Source: Sulfobacillus acidophilus DSM 10332
Lineage (GTDB): Bacteria > Bacillota > Sulfobacillia > Sulfobacillales > Sulfobacillaceae
Assembly (NCBI GenBank): GCA_000237975.1
Contig: CP003179.1
Span: 1,984,001-2,048,000 of the forward strand
Length of the DNA stretch: 64,000 nucleotides
Direction: 5' to 3'
In this document: one piece after another, positions 53,952-64,000 of the stretch
Position numbering within the stretch: the first letter of the stretch is position 1
Layout of the letters: each line of letters begins with the position of its first letter
The notes under the pieces: generated by a model
Told to the model about the DNA's origin: nothing
Database searches by the model: none
Seen by the model: the letters and a program-made list of their open reading frames with translations, nothing else
Made by a program: the position numbers and the translations under genes

Positions 53952-54398
53952 GTGTTTTCTCGAGAATTATTGGGATACCGTCGAACCGAGGTTAAAAAAC
54001 GTTTGCGGACGATTGAACTCGAACTGACACAGACGCGATTGGCTTTATCGGAAGCCGAAGACCGAATTGCTGAGCTGGAAGATGCCCTGGCAACCGTGAA
54101 TACAACCTCATGGGCTTTGCCGAAAGAGCGGGACACAACCGACGGTGAGGCTATCGAGATCCTCGTCGGCCCGATCGACAGGTTGGGTACTATCGGTGCA
54201 CTTATAGATAGTTTGGAACGATTACCGTTGCTTCGTATCCGTTATCGTCTCTATCAAGACGGGTTTTACCGCGTAAAAGCCACCACCACCAGTCTCAATA
54301 CGGTTTTAGACGGGTTAAGAAATCATGCAGCCGTACATGATATCCAACTTCACGCCGACAGGCTTTATGTGACACCGAAAGGACAAAAACCTGCATGA
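53952..54398 (+). CDS. Small coiled-coil protein
   Basis: A 148-residue soluble protein. The first 47 residues (GYRRTEVKKRLRTIELELTQ, then TRLALSEAEDRIAELEDAL) form a coiled coil like the start of DivIVA-type proteins. The C-terminal part (65-148) has GPIDRLGTIGALIDSLERLP, IRYRLYQDGFYRVKATT and LNTVLDGLRNHAAVHDIQLH, a beta-alpha-beta pattern of unknown function. The GTG at 53952 follows GGGGAGGAACGCCGC. The end overlaps the MshEN-glycosyltransferase gene by 4 bp (ATGA), so it may act as its partner. Confidence 0.72.
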   Translation: MFSRELLGYRRTEVKKRLRTIELELTQTRLALSEAEDRIAELEDALATVNTTSWALPKERDTTDGEAIEILVGPIDRLGTIGALIDSLERLPLLRIRYRLYQDGFYRVKATTTSLNTVLDGLRNHAAVHDIQLHADRLYVTPKGQKPA

Positions 54399-56623
54399 GC
54401 ATCAGAGCTTTTATCCCCGATTTATCGATTCCCTTCGTCAGCCTCAAACCTTATTTGAATACCGAGACCAGCCGTTGGCAGGATCCTGTCGACCCTACCG
54501 TAAGCCGCATTTTCGATTCCGAGTTATCCCGCCAATGGCATATGATCCCCTTCCAATATGCTGAAGGGCGTTATTTTGTTGCCACTTCGCAGCCTGATAC
54601 GTCCCGGCTCAATGCCATTGAACAGATGCTACCGGGGCCGGTAACCTTCTTTCTCTGTTCGGACGACGATCTCCAGGCAACATACGACCGCGTTTTCGGC
54701 TCCCCGATGCTATCGGCTGAGCAACAACTGGAGACCGTTATCCGGAATCAGGGGTCGGTAGACGCTCGGGCCCTCGAAAAAATTAAACGGCAACAAGCCG
54801 AAACCGGCGCCGATCTAGGCCCCTTGTTGACCAGCCACAACCTCATAAACCCGTGGGAACTCGCCGAGGCGTTAGCGGAACAATATCAATTGCCGTTAAT
54901 CAATTTATTGCACTCGACTTCTCCGTTGGCGGATCCGACAACCTGGCAAGCCATGCCGGAATCCTTTTGGCGGGACCATCTCATTGTCCCGCTTGAATTG
55001 ACCTTCCAAGAACTACTGATTGCCACTGCGAAGCCCGAAGACGCGGCTGGCCTAAAAATGTTGGAAACCCATTTTAGGCGCCCGGTGCGGGTATTCGTCA
55101 CCGGTTATCGAGACGTGTTTCACGCCTTTACGCAGCAATTTGGTACGGATCATCTGATGCAGAGCCGCACCGCTTTGCTGACCAGCCAACCTCAGAATAG
55201 CGCTTATCGTCAAGTCTCTACCGGCCAAACCGCCGTTTTGCTCGGTATCCTGCTTTGTCTGGGTCTCGGTCTCGCATTCAACGCGGTCGTCACGGGGATT
55301 GTCATCAGTCTCCTGATACAGATTTTTTACACGGGTTATAACGCATTTCGGCTATGGATGATGTACGAGGCAGCTACCAACCCCCCGGAGGTCAACGTAT
55401 CCACCGGTGAACTGGCCGCGCTCGATCCCAAAACCCTGCCCATTTACACTATTTTAGTGCCGTTATATCGTGAGGCTAACGTATTACCGACGTTGGTCGA
55501 CGCGCTCAAACGCCTCGAATATCCGCCGGACCGTCTCGATGTCAAATTATTATTGGAAGAGGATGACGAGGATACGATTCGTGCGGCGAAGTCGGCCGCG
55601 TTGCCCAATTATATCGAACTGGTGCTTGTGCCGGCTTCCCAACCGCGCACCAAACCCAAGGCCTGCAATTATGGATTGGCGCGTGCCCGCGGTGAATATG
55701 TGGTCATCTACGATGCCGAAGACATTCCGGAACCCGACCAATTATTGAAGGCGGTAGCGGTACTCCGTTCCAGCCCAGCGGAGGTGGTCTGCGTACAGGC
55801 CAAATTATCTTATTATAATGCCTTTCAAAATGTGTTAACCAAATGGTTTACGGTGGAATATGCCACGTGGTTTGATTTGATGTTACCCGGACTTTTTGCC
55901 GCACGCATGCCCATTCCGCTCGGCGGCACCTCCAATCACTTCAAAACAGCGGTATTGCAATCGATGGGCGCTTGGGATCCCTTTAACGTCACGGAAGATG
56001 CAGACTTGGGCATCCGTTTATATAAGGCCGGATATCGCACAGTGATCATGAATTCCACCACATATGAAGAAGCCAATGCGGACTTGGTCAATTGGATTCG
56101 CCAACGATCGCGTTGGATCAAGGGCTACATTCAAACGAGTCTCGTTCACCTCCGGTCGCCCCGGGCATTAAAAAAAGCGTTGGGTTGGCGCGGCGTCATG
56201 GGTTTTTGGGGATTGGTGGTCGGCACACCGCTTACGGTTCTGTTAAATCCTCTCCTTTGGGCCTTAACCTTGTCCTGGTACATCCTTGGTCCTAACTTCT
56301 CCGGCAAAATATTTCCCGGGGTCGTCTATTATGTCGCCATTGCCAACCTCTTTATCGGAAACTTTACGTTTGTTTATGTCAATATGATTAGTTTAGCCAA
56401 ACGGGAAGAATGGTCATTGGTGATACCGGCCCTCTTGTCGCCATTTTACTGGCTATTGATGTCTGTAGCGGCTTGGAAGGGTTTATGGCAACTGGTTTCC
56501 CGTCCATTTTACTGGGAAAAAACCATTCACGGATTGGCCAACAACCCCATCCCGCCAACCCGGGTGGAAGACCGGCGAATCCGGCCGGAGTCGGCGCATG
56601 TGAAAAAGCAGGTGACGTTATAA
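54395..56623 (+). CDS. Processive glycosyltransferase with N-terminal MshEN-type domain
   Basis: A 742-residue protein. Residues 111-134 and 140-163 are two 24-residue copies of the MshEN motif with a 5-residue linker between them, the layout of c-di-GMP-binding MshEN domains (LETVIRNQGSV / LGPLLTSHNLI; the conserved first Arg is Gln and Asp). Two helices (280-325) lead to a GT2 domain (350-580) with LVPLYREANVLPT, YDAEDIPEP (D440), TEDADLGIRLY (533-543) and QRSRWIKG (570-577, QxxRW), as in cellulose and PNAG synthases; four helices follow. The start overlaps the coiled-coil gene by 4 bp. It probably polymerises and exports a polysaccharide. Confidence 0.88.
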   Translation: MSIRAFIPDLSIPFVSLKPYLNTETSRWQDPVDPTVSRIFDSELSRQWHMIPFQYAEGRYFVATSQPDTSRLNAIEQMLPGPVTFFLCSDDDLQATYDRVFGSPMLSAEQQLETVIRNQGSVDARALEKIKRQQAETGADLGPLLTSHNLINPWELAEALAEQYQLPLINLLHSTSPLADPTTWQAMPESFWRDHLIVPLELTFQELLIATAKPEDAAGLKMLETHFRRPVRVFVTGYRDVFHAFTQQFGTDHLMQSRTALLTSQPQNSAYRQVSTGQTAVLLGILLCLGLGLAFNAVVTGIVISLLIQIFYTGYNAFRLWMMYEAATNPPEVNVSTGELAALDPKTLPIYTILVPLYREANVLPTLVDALKRLEYPPDRLDVKLLLEEDDEDTIRAAKSAALPNYIELVLVPASQPRTKPKACNYGLARARGEYVVIYDAEDIPEPDQLLKAVAVLRSSPAEVVCVQAKLSYYNAFQNVLTKWFTVEYATWFDLMLPGLFAARMPIPLGGTSNHFKTAVLQSMGAWDPFNVTEDADLGIRLYKAGYRTVIMNSTTYEEANADLVNWIRQRSRWIKGYIQTSLVHLRSPRALKKALGWRGVMGFWGLVVGTPLTVLLNPLLWALTLSWYILGPNFSGKIFPGVVYYVAIANLFIGNFTFVYVNMISLAKREEWSLVIPALLSPFYWLLMSVAAWKGLWQLVSRPFYWEKTIHGLANNPIPPTRVEDRRIRPESAHVKKQVTL

Positions 56624-58284
56624 TGAGCACAACCAGACACTATTCGTCCATCTCCCGGTCATACCCTGTCGTAACCCGAGTCCCCCGGCCCTACGACCGT
56701 AACGAACAGCGGGAAGCGCTGGGCGCGGGCTTGTTCACCTTTATCCTTTCGTTGGTGGCGGCCGCCGTTTTGGTCTTTAAATACCATACCATGCAAAACG
56801 ACGCGTTAGGGCGGGTGATGGATGCCTACTATGTTATCTATCATCAATTTCATTTGGCCGCAATCGGGTTTGTCTGGAACCCCCTACCAAGCCTTTTGGA
56901 ATTACCCCTCGTAGCTTTTGAACGGTGGTGGCATCCGTTGGTTACCGATGCCTTTGCCGGCAGCATAGTTAGCTCCCTTTTTGCCGGGATCGGCGCATAT
57001 TACCTGATACGCATTATGCAGCACTGGCACATTTCCCGCTGGTTTCGAGGACTTTGGGCACTGATTTATGTCTTAAATCCGATGATATTTTTGTTTGAAC
57101 CCAATGGCATGTCGGACATCATGATGGTCACCACCTTTCTGGCTGCGTTGGACGGGCTCTTACGTTATATTGCTACGGAAAATATCGGGCAACTGGTATC
57201 CAGTTCCATTTGGCTGGGACTAGCATTTCTGAATCGTTATGAGGCGGTCCCGTTTGCTTTATGCATCGGCGTGGCGTGGGATATCGGGATGATCGTGCAT
57301 GGTGTGCCGTGGAAAAAAATCATTGGCCGTACGGCTATTCTTGCTTTGCCCATCACCTATTTGGGATTTCTGTGGATCTTTTTTAACTGGACGATTATGG
57401 GCGATCCTTTTTATTTCGCGAACTCGGAATACTCCAATGCCGCACAAATGAAAACCGGAATTTATAATTTTTGGGTGACAGCCCTGGCAAAACATAGCAT
57501 CCCGGGTACGGCACATATTTTGATCTTTTTCGCTAACCTGTTTCCCCCGTTTATCCCCGCGTTCATACTGGTTGTAGTGGTCGCACTCGTCAAAAAGCTC
57601 GATACCGAAGCATTAATCCTGCTTGCCGCATCAGTCGCAGTCCCGTTATTGCAAGCCGACCTTCTGTTCAAGGGACTTTCGGCCGCCTGGGACCGTTATT
57701 TTATCATGTATATCCCGATGGGCTTCCTGCTTATTTTTTATCTTGTTCACGTCTTAAAGGGACGCCGCTGGCAAACCTGGGTATTGTCCGGGCTGGCCAC
57801 CATCGCCTTATTGGTCGGCGATGCGCAAACGTTGTCGGCGATTCAAAAGCCAGGCACCGGACACGGTTTGCGACCTTTAGTGGCCTACCTGTTACATCCT
57901 AACCGACCGAATTCCGGTGCATTAGCCCGCGCGACCGTTATCGATACCGGGAATACCGCGATGGCAAAGGAAGAAGCCGATTACATTAACCGGCATCCCC
58001 ATATCCGAGTACTGTTGGATACGTTTAATTTCTTTTTCGTCATTCCATACGTCGACCGTCCGAGCCAGGTCGTGATTACCAACGACGCCGATTTCCGCAG
58101 CGTTTTGCAAAACCCCCGTGGCCGGATTACCGACATTTTGGTACCTCAACCGGTCGGCATCTCCCAACTGAATATGGTCAACGTCGTCTACCCCACGTTA
58201 TGGTCCGGAGGTGTCCCTTGGACGAGATTGGTGGCCAGCTTCGGCTCGGATCGCTTGTATCAGGTCCTATCCAACGCTCCTTAA
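56623..58284 (+). CDS. GT-C-like polytopic membrane glycosyltransferase
   Basis: A 553-residue protein with about ten membrane helices and a C-terminal exported domain (about 420-553). After the first helix comes TMQNDALGRVMDAYYVIYHQ, with a D in the first large external loop as in GT-C enzymes (PMT/ArnT family), and YLIRIMQHWHISRWFRGLWA and ILNPMI-type helices follow. It would move a sugar from polyprenyl phosphate to an extracellular acceptor. The ATG overlaps the stop of the preceding gene (TAATG). Similar proteins accompany exosortases in some Gram-positive bacteria, as I recall. Confidence 0.75.
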   Translation: MSTTRHYSSISRSYPVVTRVPRPYDRNEQREALGAGLFTFILSLVAAAVLVFKYHTMQNDALGRVMDAYYVIYHQFHLAAIGFVWNPLPSLLELPLVAFERWWHPLVTDAFAGSIVSSLFAGIGAYYLIRIMQHWHISRWFRGLWALIYVLNPMIFLFEPNGMSDIMMVTTFLAALDGLLRYIATENIGQLVSSSIWLGLAFLNRYEAVPFALCIGVAWDIGMIVHGVPWKKIIGRTAILALPITYLGFLWIFFNWTIMGDPFYFANSEYSNAAQMKTGIYNFWVTALAKHSIPGTAHILIFFANLFPPFIPAFILVVVVALVKKLDTEALILLAASVAVPLLQADLLFKGLSAAWDRYFIMYIPMGFLLIFYLVHVLKGRRWQTWVLSGLATIALLVGDAQTLSAIQKPGTGHGLRPLVAYLLHPNRPNSGALARATVIDTGNTAMAKEEADYINRHPHIRVLLDTFNFFFVIPYVDRPSQVVITNDADFRSVLQNPRGRITDILVPQPVGISQLNMVNVVYPTLWSGGVPWTRLVASFGSDRLYQVLSNAP

Positions 58285-58390: not shown

Positions 58391-58482
58391 GTGGCAGAAC
58401 GAACGATAAAGGCAAACCATGCGAAAGCATGGGACGCAAAGCTAGAGGGGCTTATCGCATCCGCGATTGCCAGCCAGCTGCC
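58391..58482 (+). ncRNA. Cyclic di-GMP-I (GEMM-I) riboswitch
   Basis: All landmark elements of the GEMM-I aptamer are present in order. GGCAG (58393-58397) and CTGCC (58478-58482) form P1; AAAGGCAAACC (58408-58417) is the first conserved strand; CATGC-GAAA-GCATG is a GNRA-capped hairpin; GGGACGCAAAGC (58430-58442) is the second conserved strand; a variable arm follows (AGGGG...); and TTGCCAGCCAG closes the ring. It lies about 90 nt before the start of the secreted glycosidase-like protein gene, so its expression responds to c-di-GMP. Confidence 0.93.
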
Positions 58483-58538
58483 GAAACGGGAACTGGACAA
58501 ACGGGCGGTTCCCCGGTTTCGGGGGGCCGCCCCGTTTC
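58483..58538 (+). promoter_or_regulatory. Riboswitch expression platform: competing hairpins
   Basis: GAAACGGG (58483-58490), directly after P1, can pair with CCCGTTTC (58531-58538). The competing hairpin uses ACGGGCGG (58501-58508) with CCGCCCCGT (58527-58535) and CCCCG/CGGGG inside. The tail is TTCAACTATTCTC, only moderately U-rich, so the switch may act by termination or by exposing the ribosome site (GGGAGG, 58556-58561). Confidence 0.6.
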
Positions 58539-58571
58539 AACTATTCTCTCAACACGGGAGGATGCGGTTGA

Positions 58572-60863
58572 ATGCCTATTCTCAAATACATTGCCACGGC
58601 TTTGCTCATCCCTCTGGTCGCGGCGGTAAGTGCCCCGGTCGACGTCGGCCAAACCACGGCGTCCGATGCCCCATCATCCAGTATCACCGTACCCGTATCA
58701 CGGTCCGATTATGGTATTAATGTCTTCTCCTATGATAGCCAACTGAATGACCCGTCGACCGCACCTGCCCTGATCGGTCTCGGCATGGGCATGCAGCAAT
58801 TTCCCAATGACGTAGAATGGAGTTGGGTCACGAATCAATATCGTTATGGCGGAGAATCACCCGTCTCCCTTAACGGGTGGGGTAATCTGCTAAAACAAAC
58901 TGAAAATACCGGTCTCTATATTTTCGACTATGATGAAAACCCCACATTTTCCGGGGGCGGCTCACCGGCTGATGCCGTCCAACTCACGCAGTATATCTTG
59001 GCCCACCACTTACCGATTACGGCTATCGTCATTGGCGACGAGGAATATGGCCAATGGGATCATTACGCCAATCTCAACCCCTCGTTTTCCGCTACGTATT
59101 ATGCGACCCAAGCCGCTCGCATCGCACAGGCAATTCACGCCGTCGATCCAGCTATGCAAGTTGGCGTGTCCTTTACGTTGAGTCAAGATCCCGCCGGCCT
59201 TTGGTGGGATCAAACGGTACTACGGATGGATGCCCCTTACATTAACTTTTTAAGTGTCCACGACTACCCGAACGGATCCGCGTTAAGTAACGCGGCCTTG
59301 TTATCCGCGTTACCGGGAGAAATTGCCCAATCGATGGATTTTGCCCAGTCGGAAATTTCGGCCAATGTGCCTCCGACTTTACGAAACCGCCTACAGATCT
59401 GGGTAACCGAATTTAACCCCTATCAAGAACCCGGCATTCAGTCGATCGAACCGGTTTATGGCGCCGCCATGGTCGAAAGCGCCATGTTATGGCGTGCTGA
59501 CGGCGCCGCCAAACTCTTTATCTGGAGTTATGATGGGGAACCGCATCTGACGACTTCGCCCTGGTCTTTGGCCACCAATAGTCGCGTTCCGTTCGGGCTT
59601 TATGCACTGGCCGGCGACGGGCAGTCGCCCGAAATCGGGATTAACACCCTGTACCCGTCGGGTGCAGCGTTATCTACCTACATGAACGCCATTGGCAGCG
59701 GTGGACGATTGACGGTTAACGTGACGCCCGACACCGTAATCGGACAAGTCGTCTCCCCCAAAGGAGTTCATGTATTTGCCGTCAACACTTCGGCCGTCTC
59801 GCGGTCAATCGACCAGACGACGTTGCCGCCCGCCTCGCTGACGGTGTTGACCAACCCGGTCCTCTCGCCGGTACCCCCCTCCAACCTGTCGGGTAACCCG
59901 ACCGGGTTCGCATCCTATCAACCGTCGGTGCCCACGGTCAATGCGTTACCGCCCTTGTACCCGGGGGAATCGGTCACGGTAACAGGATCGGGGTTTGGTT
60001 CCGCCGGTCCCAACGCGCGAGTGATACTCGACCAAAACGGCATCAGCTACGGAGCCTCGGGTGATGCGTATTCCGTGAATATTATACGGTGGTCCAATAC
60101 CGCTATCACCTTTACGGTACCGGACGGCACCTCCGGCCCTCCGTTAGTGCCCGGCAACGCCTCGTTAACGGTTGAAACGGATGCCCAGTTGGTCTCGACT
60201 TCTCTTCCCATCTCGATAACCGCCCCCCCTGTGCTAAATGCCTCCATCGAACCGGGCGCCACAGTCTATCCGGGGGAAATTCTTACGGTTACCGGTAGCG
60301 GATTTGGTACCGAACAAGGATCAGGTTTCGTCATGCTCAGCCAAAATTCCATAAGCTATGGCGCTCCGTTCGACGCCTATAAGCTTCGTATCATCGCTTG
60401 GACACCAACCGCCGTATCGTTCCAAGTACCGAACGGTTGGTCAGGGCCTTCGCTATCGCCGGGTCTGGCGACTCTGGACATCGTGTCCGAAACCGGCCTC
60501 AAATCCGCGCCCATCTCTTTGATGGTTACCACTCCCCCGCAAATCGCAATAACCCTCGAACCTTCCGACCATGTGCTTCCAGGCGAATGGCTGACAATTT
60601 ACGGTTCTAATTTTGGAAGCAGCCAAGGAAGCGGGTACGTCACCATCACGCAAAACGGAGTGAGCTATGGTGCCCCAGGCGATTGGTACGGCCTTACTGT
60701 TGGGGCATGGTCCGATACCGCGGTCACATTTCAAGTGCCTTTACCGGGAATGTCAAATACCGGTCATCTCGAACCGGGGTTACAGTCGGGACCGGCTACC
60801 CTGTCTCTGGTTACCGGCGACGGATTGGTCAGTGTTCCTCTGACCATTACGGTCGGAAATTAG
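58572..60863 (+). CDS. Secreted protein: glycosidase-like barrel plus three IPT/TIG repeats
   Basis: A 763-residue exported protein. A signal peptide (about 1-30, ATALLIPLVAAVSAPVD) is followed by a region to about 400 that resembles TIM-barrel glycoside hydrolases (VSVHDYPNG-type segment, IWVTEFNPYQEPG, KLFIWSYDGEPH). Then come three IPT/TIG immunoglobulin-like repeats that start YPGESVTVTGSGFGS, YPGEILTVTGSGFGT and LPGEWLTIYGSNFGS (near 465, 568 and 660). Translation starts at ATG 58572, 10 nt after GGGAGG. A c-di-GMP riboswitch precedes it. It may bind or trim the polysaccharide made by the neighbouring genes. It lacks the TPEVPYAA tail. Confidence 0.85.
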   Translation: MPILKYIATALLIPLVAAVSAPVDVGQTTASDAPSSSITVPVSRSDYGINVFSYDSQLNDPSTAPALIGLGMGMQQFPNDVEWSWVTNQYRYGGESPVSLNGWGNLLKQTENTGLYIFDYDENPTFSGGGSPADAVQLTQYILAHHLPITAIVIGDEEYGQWDHYANLNPSFSATYYATQAARIAQAIHAVDPAMQVGVSFTLSQDPAGLWWDQTVLRMDAPYINFLSVHDYPNGSALSNAALLSALPGEIAQSMDFAQSEISANVPPTLRNRLQIWVTEFNPYQEPGIQSIEPVYGAAMVESAMLWRADGAAKLFIWSYDGEPHLTTSPWSLATNSRVPFGLYALAGDGQSPEIGINTLYPSGAALSTYMNAIGSGGRLTVNVTPDTVIGQVVSPKGVHVFAVNTSAVSRSIDQTTLPPASLTVLTNPVLSPVPPSNLSGNPTGFASYQPSVPTVNALPPLYPGESVTVTGSGFGSAGPNARVILDQNGISYGASGDAYSVNIIRWSNTAITFTVPDGTSGPPLVPGNASLTVETDAQLVSTSLPISITAPPVLNASIEPGATVYPGEILTVTGSGFGTEQGSGFVMLSQNSISYGAPFDAYKLRIIAWTPTAVSFQVPNGWSGPSLSPGLATLDIVSETGLKSAPISLMVTTPPQIAITLEPSDHVLPGEWLTIYGSNFGSSQGSGYVTITQNGVSYGAPGDWYGLTVGAWSDTAVTFQVPLPGMSNTGHLEPGLQSGPATLSLVTGDGLVSVPLTITVGN

Positions 60864-61596
60864 TCAAGCGACGCTCCTGATTGCATCCGATAACCCTCGG
60901 CTTCGCGGCCGAGGGAGATTTTTCATGATTATGTCGACCAGGTACTTGGCGACTTCGCTTATCCGCATACATTGCCTGATCGGCTCGATGAATCAAGGCC
61001 TCCGGTAATTCGCCGGCATGCCACTCTGCTACCCCGACCGAAAAAGCCAGTTCTAACGCGGTTTCCGCCTTAAGACGTTCCGCGAAGGCTGCCGCCGCCT
61101 CGTACGAAGCACACGGCAACACGATGAGGAATTCATCACCGCCCCACCGGCAAATAAAATCCGAGTCTCGTATCTTCGCGCGCCAAAGGGTTGCCGCTTG
61201 GCGTAACAGGCGGTCACCCGCCGCATGACCGTGCTGATCGTTAACCAACTTAAAGCCGTCAAGGTCCAGAAAGACCACCGACAACGGTTGGTTATAACGT
61301 GTCGCCGATTTGATAGTCTGTTGCAAGCGGATAAAGCCGTAACGCCGCGTCCAGATGCCCGTTACGTCATCGGTCAATATGCCGGATAGCCATCCTTCCC
61401 GTGAGAGATCCTCAAAATAATGATGGGTCAAATGCCCGACCAACTCGCGTAATCGGAAACGGATCATTTCCTCCCCGGCTCCCGTCGAGTGAGCAATATC
61501 CGCTATTGGCGTGCCTAAGAGGAGTAAATCGATAATAACCCGCTCCGAGTGATAATCATGCCACCGATGTGGCCCCTGACCCCCGATGATGATCAT
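60847..61596 (-). CDS. Diguanylate cyclase
   Basis: A 249-residue enzyme that makes c-di-GMP from two GTP. The GGDEF domain (about 105-230) has the intact active site RWGGDEFLIVLP (GGDEF at 152-156), DLDGFKLVNDQHGHAAGD before it, and the inhibitory I-site RDSD (143-146), five residues upstream, so product feedback is expected. The N-terminal 70 residues are helical with a possible helix-turn-helix (TPIADIAHSTGAGEEMIRF). It lies next to a c-di-GMP riboswitch and an MshEN-glycosyltransferase. Its C-terminus overlaps the convergent gene by 17 bp and the terminator after it. Confidence 0.88.
   Translation of the reverse strand: MIIIGGQGPHRWHDYHSERVIIDLLLLGTPIADIAHSTGAGEEMIRFRLRELVGHLTHHYFEDLSREGWLSGILTDDVTGIWTRRYGFIRLQQTIKSATRYNQPLSVVFLDLDGFKLVNDQHGHAAGDRLLRQAATLWRAKIRDSDFICRWGGDEFLIVLPCASYEAAAAFAERLKAETALELAFSVGVAEWHAGELPEALIHRADQAMYADKRSRQVPGRHNHEKSPSAAKPRVIGCNQERRLTNFRP
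60894..60923 (+). terminator. Rho-independent terminator of the riboswitch-controlled gene
   Basis: CCCTCGGC (60894-60901), loop TTCGCG, GCCGAGGG (60908-60915), then AGATTTTT. The perfect 8-bp stem and T run end the secreted-protein transcript 30 bp after its stop. The hairpin lies inside the 3' part of the opposite-strand cyclase gene. Confidence 0.85.
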
Positions 61597-62044: not shown

Positions 62045-63922
62045 TCACGATTCCGTTAAAAAGAACAGGGCGTCGGTCAGTCGTTCTATCGCCCTTCGAT
62101 GGTTTCGAAAATAGGTGGCACGGGATACGTGAAATTGTTCGGCTAGGGATTCATGCGATCCCGCCCGTTCCACATAGTACCGATATAAAAGTTCGCGGCC
62201 CTCCGGCCAATCCCCAAGGTCAGCCGAATGAAGAGCATCCAATATCCGCACCTGAAAAATCTCGGCCGAGGTAAGCCCCCATGCCTGGCCCGCTAACTGA
62301 TATAAAGCCGTTTCACTTAAGGAACCGGTATCGCGAATGACGTGGAGTGCTTGCTGCACCCAATCCACCAGCCGGGTTTTGGGCGGCAGGTCGCTAAGAC
62401 GGGGCTTGACGACATCTCGCGCCCAGGCGAGGTACCCGGCCGATAAGTCGAGGTGCCAGACTATGCGCCCCATTTCGATGCGTTCGTCGCGAAATCCCAT
62501 CCGACGCAAATAGGCCGATAGGATTTCCCGGAGTCCGGCCGGCGTGTCGATTGCAATCTCCCACCGAACGAACGCCGTCTGAGAAAATAACGCCACCGCC
62601 ATACGAAAGATATGGGGTAACGCCCACCACTCGGATAGTTCGATATCCCGAATCGTCAGACAACGCGAGGTCAAATTATGCTCCACGGTAATCCGCACCG
62701 CAAAGTCGCCGTCGTTACCGTCGATTACATACTCCCTCGGCCCGGCTTTGCCGTCTTTCGGATGCCACCGACCGACTCGGCAATCCGCCTCATGGACAGG
62801 AAACAGCAGGTCCTGCACCAGCGCCGTGATTTGAGCCTCATAGAGTGCCGCTCGCTCCCCGCCACTTTCCTGGATCAGGAGATTAAGCCATCGCCGACGC
62901 CACCACTCCCGCGACCAAGGCCGACTAAGGCCCAAGCCTTCTTGAATCGGAGCCCGCACTTCCGGTGCGATTTGATAAATCCCCCCCGCATGCTCTATCA
63001 CGAGCGGAAACGTCATCAATTCATCCCAATGTTTTCGCACCCGGTGGGCATCCAACACCCCCGAAAGCAGCCGTCGATCAAACCACGGTACTAAACTGGC
63101 CACCGCAATCAACGTATCGACCGTGTCATGGCCCCACCCGGCGCGCCAACGGAGCCGTCGGGAGCCCCGATGCAACATCTGTTCAATCAGAAATAAAGGC
63201 AGATGCCGACCAATGCGCTTTTGCACCAACGGGTCACTCGTTTTCAACCAAACTAAGCTATGGACCAACGTTTGTAGTACTTTCGGGTTGCCCTGGGACA
63301 GTTTTGTTACGAGCGCGATATCCTCGGATTCCCGAATTCCCGCATTTCGGGCGACTTGCTCGATCTGTGGGCCGTCTAGCGGCTGAATAGTCACCGTCGA
63401 TACCCGAGAAAGCCAGTCCGCATCCCCTACCCAATGTCCGCGGACGCGATCGGATCCGGCCAATACCCAGACAATGCGGGGACTCATCAGGGGAAATACC
63501 TGTTCTCGCAACCAGCGGTCTACCGAATACCATTGGTCATAGTCGTCAAGCGCCCATATCAAGCCGCGACGGTCGGCCACTTGATTCATTTCCCGCACCA
63601 TTTCTAAGACCGTTGCCGTCGATACCGGTTCTTTCCGCAATGTCTCTAAAACCCAGCGGGCCACCCCGGCGGGAGACATCTCAACCGCATGGGCCGGCGT
63701 ATAAAGGAAATCCGCTTCCTCATGCTGCGCCCACTCTAATAACTGGCGCACGTAAAATGTTTTGCCCGATCCGGGCCCACCTGCCAGATAGACGACACGG
63801 GGTAACGCGTGACCGTTTACCGCTTCGGCCGCCCACGGAGTGGGAACCCCCCACGGATCCGCGCTCATTAACCCTGGCCGCGTCCCCGATACCACCAAGC
63901 GCCCCATCTCTAACCGCTCCAT
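62045..63922 (-). CDS. STAND-like P-loop ATPase with C-terminal helix-turn-helix
   Basis: A 625-residue protein. VVYLAGGPGSGKTFYVRQLL (Walker A, 48-55) and GLIWALDDYDQWYSVDRWL (Walker B, about 125) are followed by VWVLAGSDRVRGHW, QPLDGPQIEQVARNAGI and LSQGNPKVLQTLVHSLVWL, the STAND/AAA pattern of signal-transduction ATPases. The C-terminal 45 residues have SLAEQFHVSRATYFRNHRRA, a helix-turn-helix. It may regulate transcription in response to a signal. The ATG at 63922 follows AAGGAGGTACCG. It lies upstream of the diguanylate cyclase gene on the same strand, 448 bp away, and could control the exosortase locus, which is inference. Confidence 0.75.
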   Translation of the reverse strand: MERLEMGRLVVSGTRPGLMSADPWGVPTPWAAEAVNGHALPRVVYLAGGPGSGKTFYVRQLLEWAQHEEADFLYTPAHAVEMSPAGVARWVLETLRKEPVSTATVLEMVREMNQVADRRGLIWALDDYDQWYSVDRWLREQVFPLMSPRIVWVLAGSDRVRGHWVGDADWLSRVSTVTIQPLDGPQIEQVARNAGIRESEDIALVTKLSQGNPKVLQTLVHSLVWLKTSDPLVQKRIGRHLPLFLIEQMLHRGSRRLRWRAGWGHDTVDTLIAVASLVPWFDRRLLSGVLDAHRVRKHWDELMTFPLVIEHAGGIYQIAPEVRAPIQEGLGLSRPWSREWWRRRWLNLLIQESGGERAALYEAQITALVQDLLFPVHEADCRVGRWHPKDGKAGPREYVIDGNDGDFAVRITVEHNLTSRCLTIRDIELSEWWALPHIFRMAVALFSQTAFVRWEIAIDTPAGLREILSAYLRRMGFRDERIEMGRIVWHLDLSAGYLAWARDVVKPRLSDLPPKTRLVDWVQQALHVIRDTGSLSETALYQLAGQAWGLTSAEIFQVRILDALHSADLGDWPEGRELLYRYYVERAGSHESLAEQFHVSRATYFRNHRRAIERLTDALFFLTES

Positions 63923-64000
63923 CGGTACCTCCTTCCAAACCGTCCGTATGTGCGACGACGGCATTGGAACCCGATACATGCCGAATACCCCACAAAGATC

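Follow-up and report, generated by a model that had tools for sequence, protein, structure and literature searches.

A c-di-GMP-I aptamer with a conserved strand-exchange helix upstream of a putative secreted glycosidase gene in Sulfobacillus acidophilus

Introduction

Riboswitch aptamers of the c-di-GMP-I (GEMM-I) class are collected in Rfam as RF01051, and the Vc2 aptamer contacts c-di-GMP through G20, A47 and C92 (PMC4744006). Closest to the locus described here are two switches. Cd1 of Clostridioides difficile, in the account given where PMC10907184 cites it, is a strand-exchange switch whose P1 3′ strand is claimed either by the aptamer or by a switch helix beside a terminator-like hairpin. 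Bc1 of Bacillus thuringiensis has a c-di-GMP-I aptamer followed by a long platform with two terminators 28 bp apart, and control of both transcription and translation is possible (PMC11218506). For the proteins encoded around our locus, the nearest described counterparts are the NfrB and Psl-type exopolysaccharide systems (PMC8669469).

Here we analyse a c-di-GMP-I aptamer in a stretch of 64,000 nt (the window, G000:C1:1984001-2048000) from a 3.56-Mb genome in two contigs. The class is an ordinary one and the place is interesting: the aptamer stands before a glycosidase gene and is followed by a well-supported switch helix, unlike the helix that a preliminary description of this DNA had proposed.

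Results

The preliminary description had placed a full GEMM-I riboswitch at this position and named RF01051 as a quick check. A whole-genome search bears out the class, with a score above the RF01051 cut-off of 35 bits and an E-value of 4e-15 (Table 1); the aptamer is the sole Rfam match within the window, and it also exceeds the RF03167 cut-off of 59 bits. While the aptamer is full as described, the start at 58391 does not hold, as the model match begins about 10 nt later. Aligning the conserved blocks GGCAAACC, GACGCAAAGC and GCC with Vc2 places the equivalents of G20 at 58411, of A47 at 58438 and of C92 in 58481-58482, where the bases are G, A and C. Judged by its sequence, this is a real, full c-di-GMP-I aptamer. 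The whole-genome RF01051 search found one further c-di-GMP-I aptamer, at 876266-876353. The genome has 11 GGDEF and 9 EAL domain matches, and its host therefore probably both makes and degrades c-di-GMP.

Table 1. Positions of the riboswitch elements and neighbouring genes in the window
Feature	Position	Strand	Evidence
c-di-GMP-I riboswitch aptamer	58401..58486	+	RF01051, 76.4 bits; RF03167, 68.5 bits
AT 5′ strand: P1 3′ strand and extension, CCGAAACGGGAAC	58481..58493	+	13 bp with 58508-58522; conserved, covarying
AT 3′ strand: apical part of hairpin H2, GTTCCCCGGTTTCGG	58508..58522	+	conserved, covarying
H2, terminator-like hairpin	58499..58537	+	-30.5 kcal/mol, z -3.9; U-tract poor in this genome
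H3, hairpin holding the Shine-Dalgarno sequence GGGAGG (58556-58561)	58538..58571	+	-12.4 kcal/mol, z -3.8
Putative secreted clan GH-A-like glycosidase with TIG repeats, 763 aa	58572..60863	+	TIG; GH51 profile; Foldseek GH51, GH79, GH39; invariant glutamates
Polytopic membrane protein beside the glycosidase	56617..58284	+	synteny; no Pfam match
GT2 glycosyltransferase with N-terminal MshEN domains	54395..56623	+	Pfam; synteny; MshEN motif degenerate here
Diguanylate-cyclase-like GGDEF protein, convergent with the glycosidase gene	60847..61596	-	PF00990, 122 bits

The switch recurs in front of orthologous glycosidase genes, and its association with the gene is conserved. The relatives are Sulfobacillus-type acidophiles, and the records with close homologues include Sulfobacillus thermotolerans Kr1 and an S. 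acidophilus MAG. RF01051 matches were found in 29 of 34 family genomes. The aptamer lies upstream of the close glycosidase orthologue in 14 of 14 cases, that is, in all Sulfobacillus-family genomes that have one, with 73-90 nt between the aptamer end and the start codon. In a second glycosidase clade, five members carry it as well (G001:C5, G012:C7, G013:C72, G014:C267 and G016:C106), the gene of the sixth member beginning near a contig edge, and so do five distant loci (L070, L071, L073, L075 and L076) at which the protein identity is 36-40%. No aptamer was found in the DNA examined around the remote paralogues L099, L100, L101, L104 and L107.

The gene downstream of the aptamer is followed by a convergent gene, so the transcription unit is a single gene, in agreement with the preliminary description, which had a single secreted glycosidase-like protein under control. 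The N-terminus of the protein appears signal-like by eye. A profile search returned GH51 first. A model of 419 residues (mean pLDDT 76.7, pTM 0.83) matched GH51 arabinofuranosidases, GH79-type glucuronidases, heparanase and GH39-type proteins including PslG in Foldseek, the best match to GH51 having an E-value of 7e-14. The predicted model combines a barrel fold like that of known clan GH-A members with two conserved glutamate positions, and E157/E158 and E280 are invariant in the domain. We therefore regard the protein as a putative secreted clan GH-A-like glycosidase.

At many loci the membrane protein and the GT2 synthase remain neighbours of the glycosidase, in some cases with the order altered. 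The conserved arginines of the c-di-GMP-binding MshEN motif are lost in the window and seemingly intact in L070 and L076. With these arginines absent, c-di-GMP control of the synthase in this genome appears doubtful, and we dropped the MshEN domains beside the switch as a c-di-GMP sensor. Further upstream of the synthase cassette lies a gene for an exosortase-family protein (PF09721; 50984-52603, + strand), followed by a GT2/GtrA glycosyltransferase gene. On the other side of the glycosidase, 62045-63979 (- strand) encodes an AAA ATPase, homologues of which (27-32% identity) are found near the glycosidase in L064, L069, L072, L077 and L079.

The preliminary description had also proposed a two-state platform, in which the segment directly after P1 pairs with a segment of a terminator-like hairpin. 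The complementarity exists: GAAACGGG (58483-58490) matches CCCGTTTC (58531-58538), which lies in the 3′ arm of H2, and it arises because AAACGGG is duplicated (58484-58490 and 58499-58505). Its role as the switch did not stand. The pairing is worth -10.3 kcal/mol against -8.7 kcal/mol for shuffles, 26% of which are as good, and in 17 leaders the cognate strands had no advantage over swapped ones (P 0.64); a strong match is present in L023 and L026, both close relatives. When the platform is folded on its own, the minimum-energy structure contains the pairing together with the GC core of H2, and the pairing therefore would not act against H2. The shuffles, the 17-leader comparison and the intact H2 core led us to reject it.

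What remains of the two-state platform is carried by a different helix, AT, in which CCGAAACGGGAAC pairs with GTTCCCCGGTTTCGG over 13 bp with a 2-nt bulge (-21.7 kcal/mol when folded alone, z -3.0). The P1 3′ strand, together with the position aligned to C92, forms the start of the AT 5′ strand, and the apical part of H2 serves as the AT 3′ strand. AT is therefore incompatible with P1 as well as with the terminator-like hairpin, as the switch helix of a strand-exchange riboswitch is. AT is also conserved and covarying. Across the 17 leaders, cognate strands averaged -15.1 kcal/mol and strands swapped between species -12.9 kcal/mol, with 0 of 5000 permutations as good, a contrast that shared ancestry inflates. 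In an alignment of 14 distinct leaders, made by hand and with bulges taken out manually, a step that favours the structure, 82% of cells pair; a shift of the strands by one column lowers this to 46-58%. Five pairs are changed on both sides in this alignment, the leaders sharing ancestry. Both sides are altered together in L073 and L075 (GCCGAA/TTCGG to GCCAA/TTGGC), and in L070 and L071 CTGCCGCG/CGCGGCAG stands before a hairpin that has a six-U tract. Sequence identity gives a separate line of evidence: it is 0.70 for the apical motif and 0.78 for the first post-aptamer bases (shuffled 0.42 and 0.41), while the arms of H2 stay near the shuffled level (0.48 and 0.52 against 0.40 and 0.44).

Using secondary-structure energies that contain neither tertiary contacts nor ligand, we compared the competing states along the transcript. 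With the 3′ end at 58522-58528, AT lies 9-12 kcal/mol below the locked-aptamer state at 37°C and 8-11 kcal/mol below it at 47°C. Synthesis of the 3′ arm of H2 tips the balance to H2 and leaves AT and the locked aptamer nearly equal in energy. As AT is favoured only until that arm is made, the choice between AT and the locked aptamer is predicted to be co-transcriptional. For the full-length leader, H2 comes out lowest in energy even in the absence of ligand.

The terminator-like hairpin of the preliminary description is confirmed as a strong hairpin, H2. In the window it is followed by UUUCAACUAUUCUCU, a weak U-tract, which leaves termination in doubt for this species; a terminator scan gave no match on the + strand, and a promoter scan gave no match. 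Clear U-tracts follow the hairpin in L013, L021, L017, L020, L039, L070 and L071. H3-like hairpins are found in many relatives, and H3, which holds the Shine-Dalgarno sequence, may contribute control at the level of translation. In L010, L015, L017, L023, L026, L034 and L073, the post-P1 linker pairs with the start-codon region, and cognate linker/start-codon pairing was better than swapped pairing in 20000 permutations with fixed windows. Such an outer helix is absent from the window, though supported in these relatives.

A second aptamer type was observed at L002:1501-1588 (G000:C1:876266-876353) and at L030, L040, L044, L045, L048 and L051-L056. In this genome's copy and 11 intact relative loci, a membrane-protein frame starts at a conserved GTG in the 3′ part of the aptamer, and an AAGGGGG-like Shine-Dalgarno sequence also lies within it, the aptamer overlapping the coding sequence. 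At several of these loci an in-frame stop lies only 8-12 codons upstream, and at least 27 codons pass without another start codon. The membrane protein has a LuxR-type HTH at its end in this genome. At L042 (G024) and L046 (G025), the Shine-Dalgarno sequence AAAGGAG directly follows the P1 3′ strand of a c-di-GMP-I aptamer, with a secreted-protein-like gene downstream, an arrangement that makes direct occlusion of this sequence possible. The direct-occlusion examples in a 2024 review of riboswitch mechanisms do not include c-di-GMP-I.

Discussion

Taken together, we favour, with moderate confidence, a model in which the c-di-GMP-I riboswitch turns the secreted glycosidase gene OFF by strand exchange. 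Without c-di-GMP, once the polymerase has passed 58522, 58481-58493 would pair with the newly made 58508-58522; AT would then break P1 and block nucleation of H2, and expression would continue. Bound c-di-GMP would lock P1 and the contact base in 58481-58482 and so block AT, whereupon H2 would fold and transcription would stop, or the leader would be left closed with its Shine-Dalgarno sequence in H3. With AT as the read-through state, the ligand would give OFF. The stability of H2 at full length means that the ON state must be kinetic. Counting against this model are the weak U-tract in the window and H3, which would keep the Shine-Dalgarno sequence closed in either state.

Control may also lie in translation. 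H2 may be no terminator here, and the competition between AT and H2 may instead decide whether the Shine-Dalgarno sequence and start codon are held in H3, or, in relatives, in the outer helix with the post-aptamer linker. The weak U-tract, the low z-score of H3 (-3.8) and the linker pairing seen in relatives favour such a translational OFF switch. We nevertheless consider it unlikely, although it is the stronger of the alternatives, since the window lacks the linker-start helix, AT does not directly open H3, and distant relatives have plain U-tract terminators. ON switches exist among c-di-GMP-I riboswitches, and the direction assigned here rests on inference, so the ligand could in principle favour expression, with the role of H2 or AT opposite to the one given above. 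This is improbable: AT uses the P1 3′ strand, so the ligand must oppose AT, and AT is the sole conserved state that blocks H2.

The identity of the ligand is bound up with the Rfam label. The clan filter assigns the aptamer to RF03167, 'c-di-GMP-I-GGC', whose cut-off its overall sequence exceeds, and this could be read as a variant aptamer with a different ligand. We infer that the name 'GGC' gives the bases at the three contact positions and that the A47 position defines the variant. In the RF03167 alignment, the consensus GACGCGAAG has G at this position, but the window, GACGCAAAG, has A. The RF01051 score is also higher than the RF03167 score, and the contact bases of c-di-GMP binders are kept. 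A variant ligand is thus very improbable, and we set it aside on the pocket base. Since the contacts are G, A and C and the A47 position is not G, we file the aptamer as canonical c-di-GMP-I, with c-di-GMP as the likely predicted ligand; the GGC label shows that an Rfam name can mislead on the binding pocket.

If the strand-exchange OFF model is correct, synthesis of the hydrolase would be restrained as long as c-di-GMP promotes matrix polysaccharide and would proceed once c-di-GMP falls. This would tie c-di-GMP in acidophiles of the Sulfobacillus type to a secreted enzyme that cuts polysaccharide and is encoded next to a polysaccharide synthase, and would offer a plausible way of releasing biofilm. 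More tentatively, and with rather less than even confidence, we propose that c-di-GMP-I aptamers in this family may run a matrix-related regulon through several platforms: a dual-level OFF switch on the matrix glycosidase, whose post-aptamer strand would act as antiterminator and, in relatives, as start-codon clamp, and direct occlusion, by the aptamer, of the Shine-Dalgarno sequence and GUG start of the LuxR-type regulator gene. The approximately 19 natural leaders form a family whose conserved switch helix lends itself to testing by swaps.

Compared with the described systems, the locus shares the aptamer and contact bases of RF01051 and, with Cd1, the exchange of the P1 3′ strand beside a terminator-like hairpin. 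As far as Cd1 is set out where PMC10907184 cites it, the window differs in recruiting the hairpin's apical part to its switch helix, in covering the Shine-Dalgarno sequence with a second hairpin, in having a secreted glycosidase gene as the target and in the weakness of the U-tract in this genome. Bc1 is similar in its aptamer, long platform and potential for control at both levels, and has two terminators where the window has one terminator-like hairpin and the Shine-Dalgarno hairpin (PMC11218506). The likeness to NfrB and Psl-type systems lies in the GT2 protein with MshEN domains beside the riboswitch gene and in the match of the glycosidase model to PslG among others (PMC8669469); in the window, by contrast, the MshEN domains are N-terminal and degenerate, and the glycosidase is placed under a riboswitch of its own.
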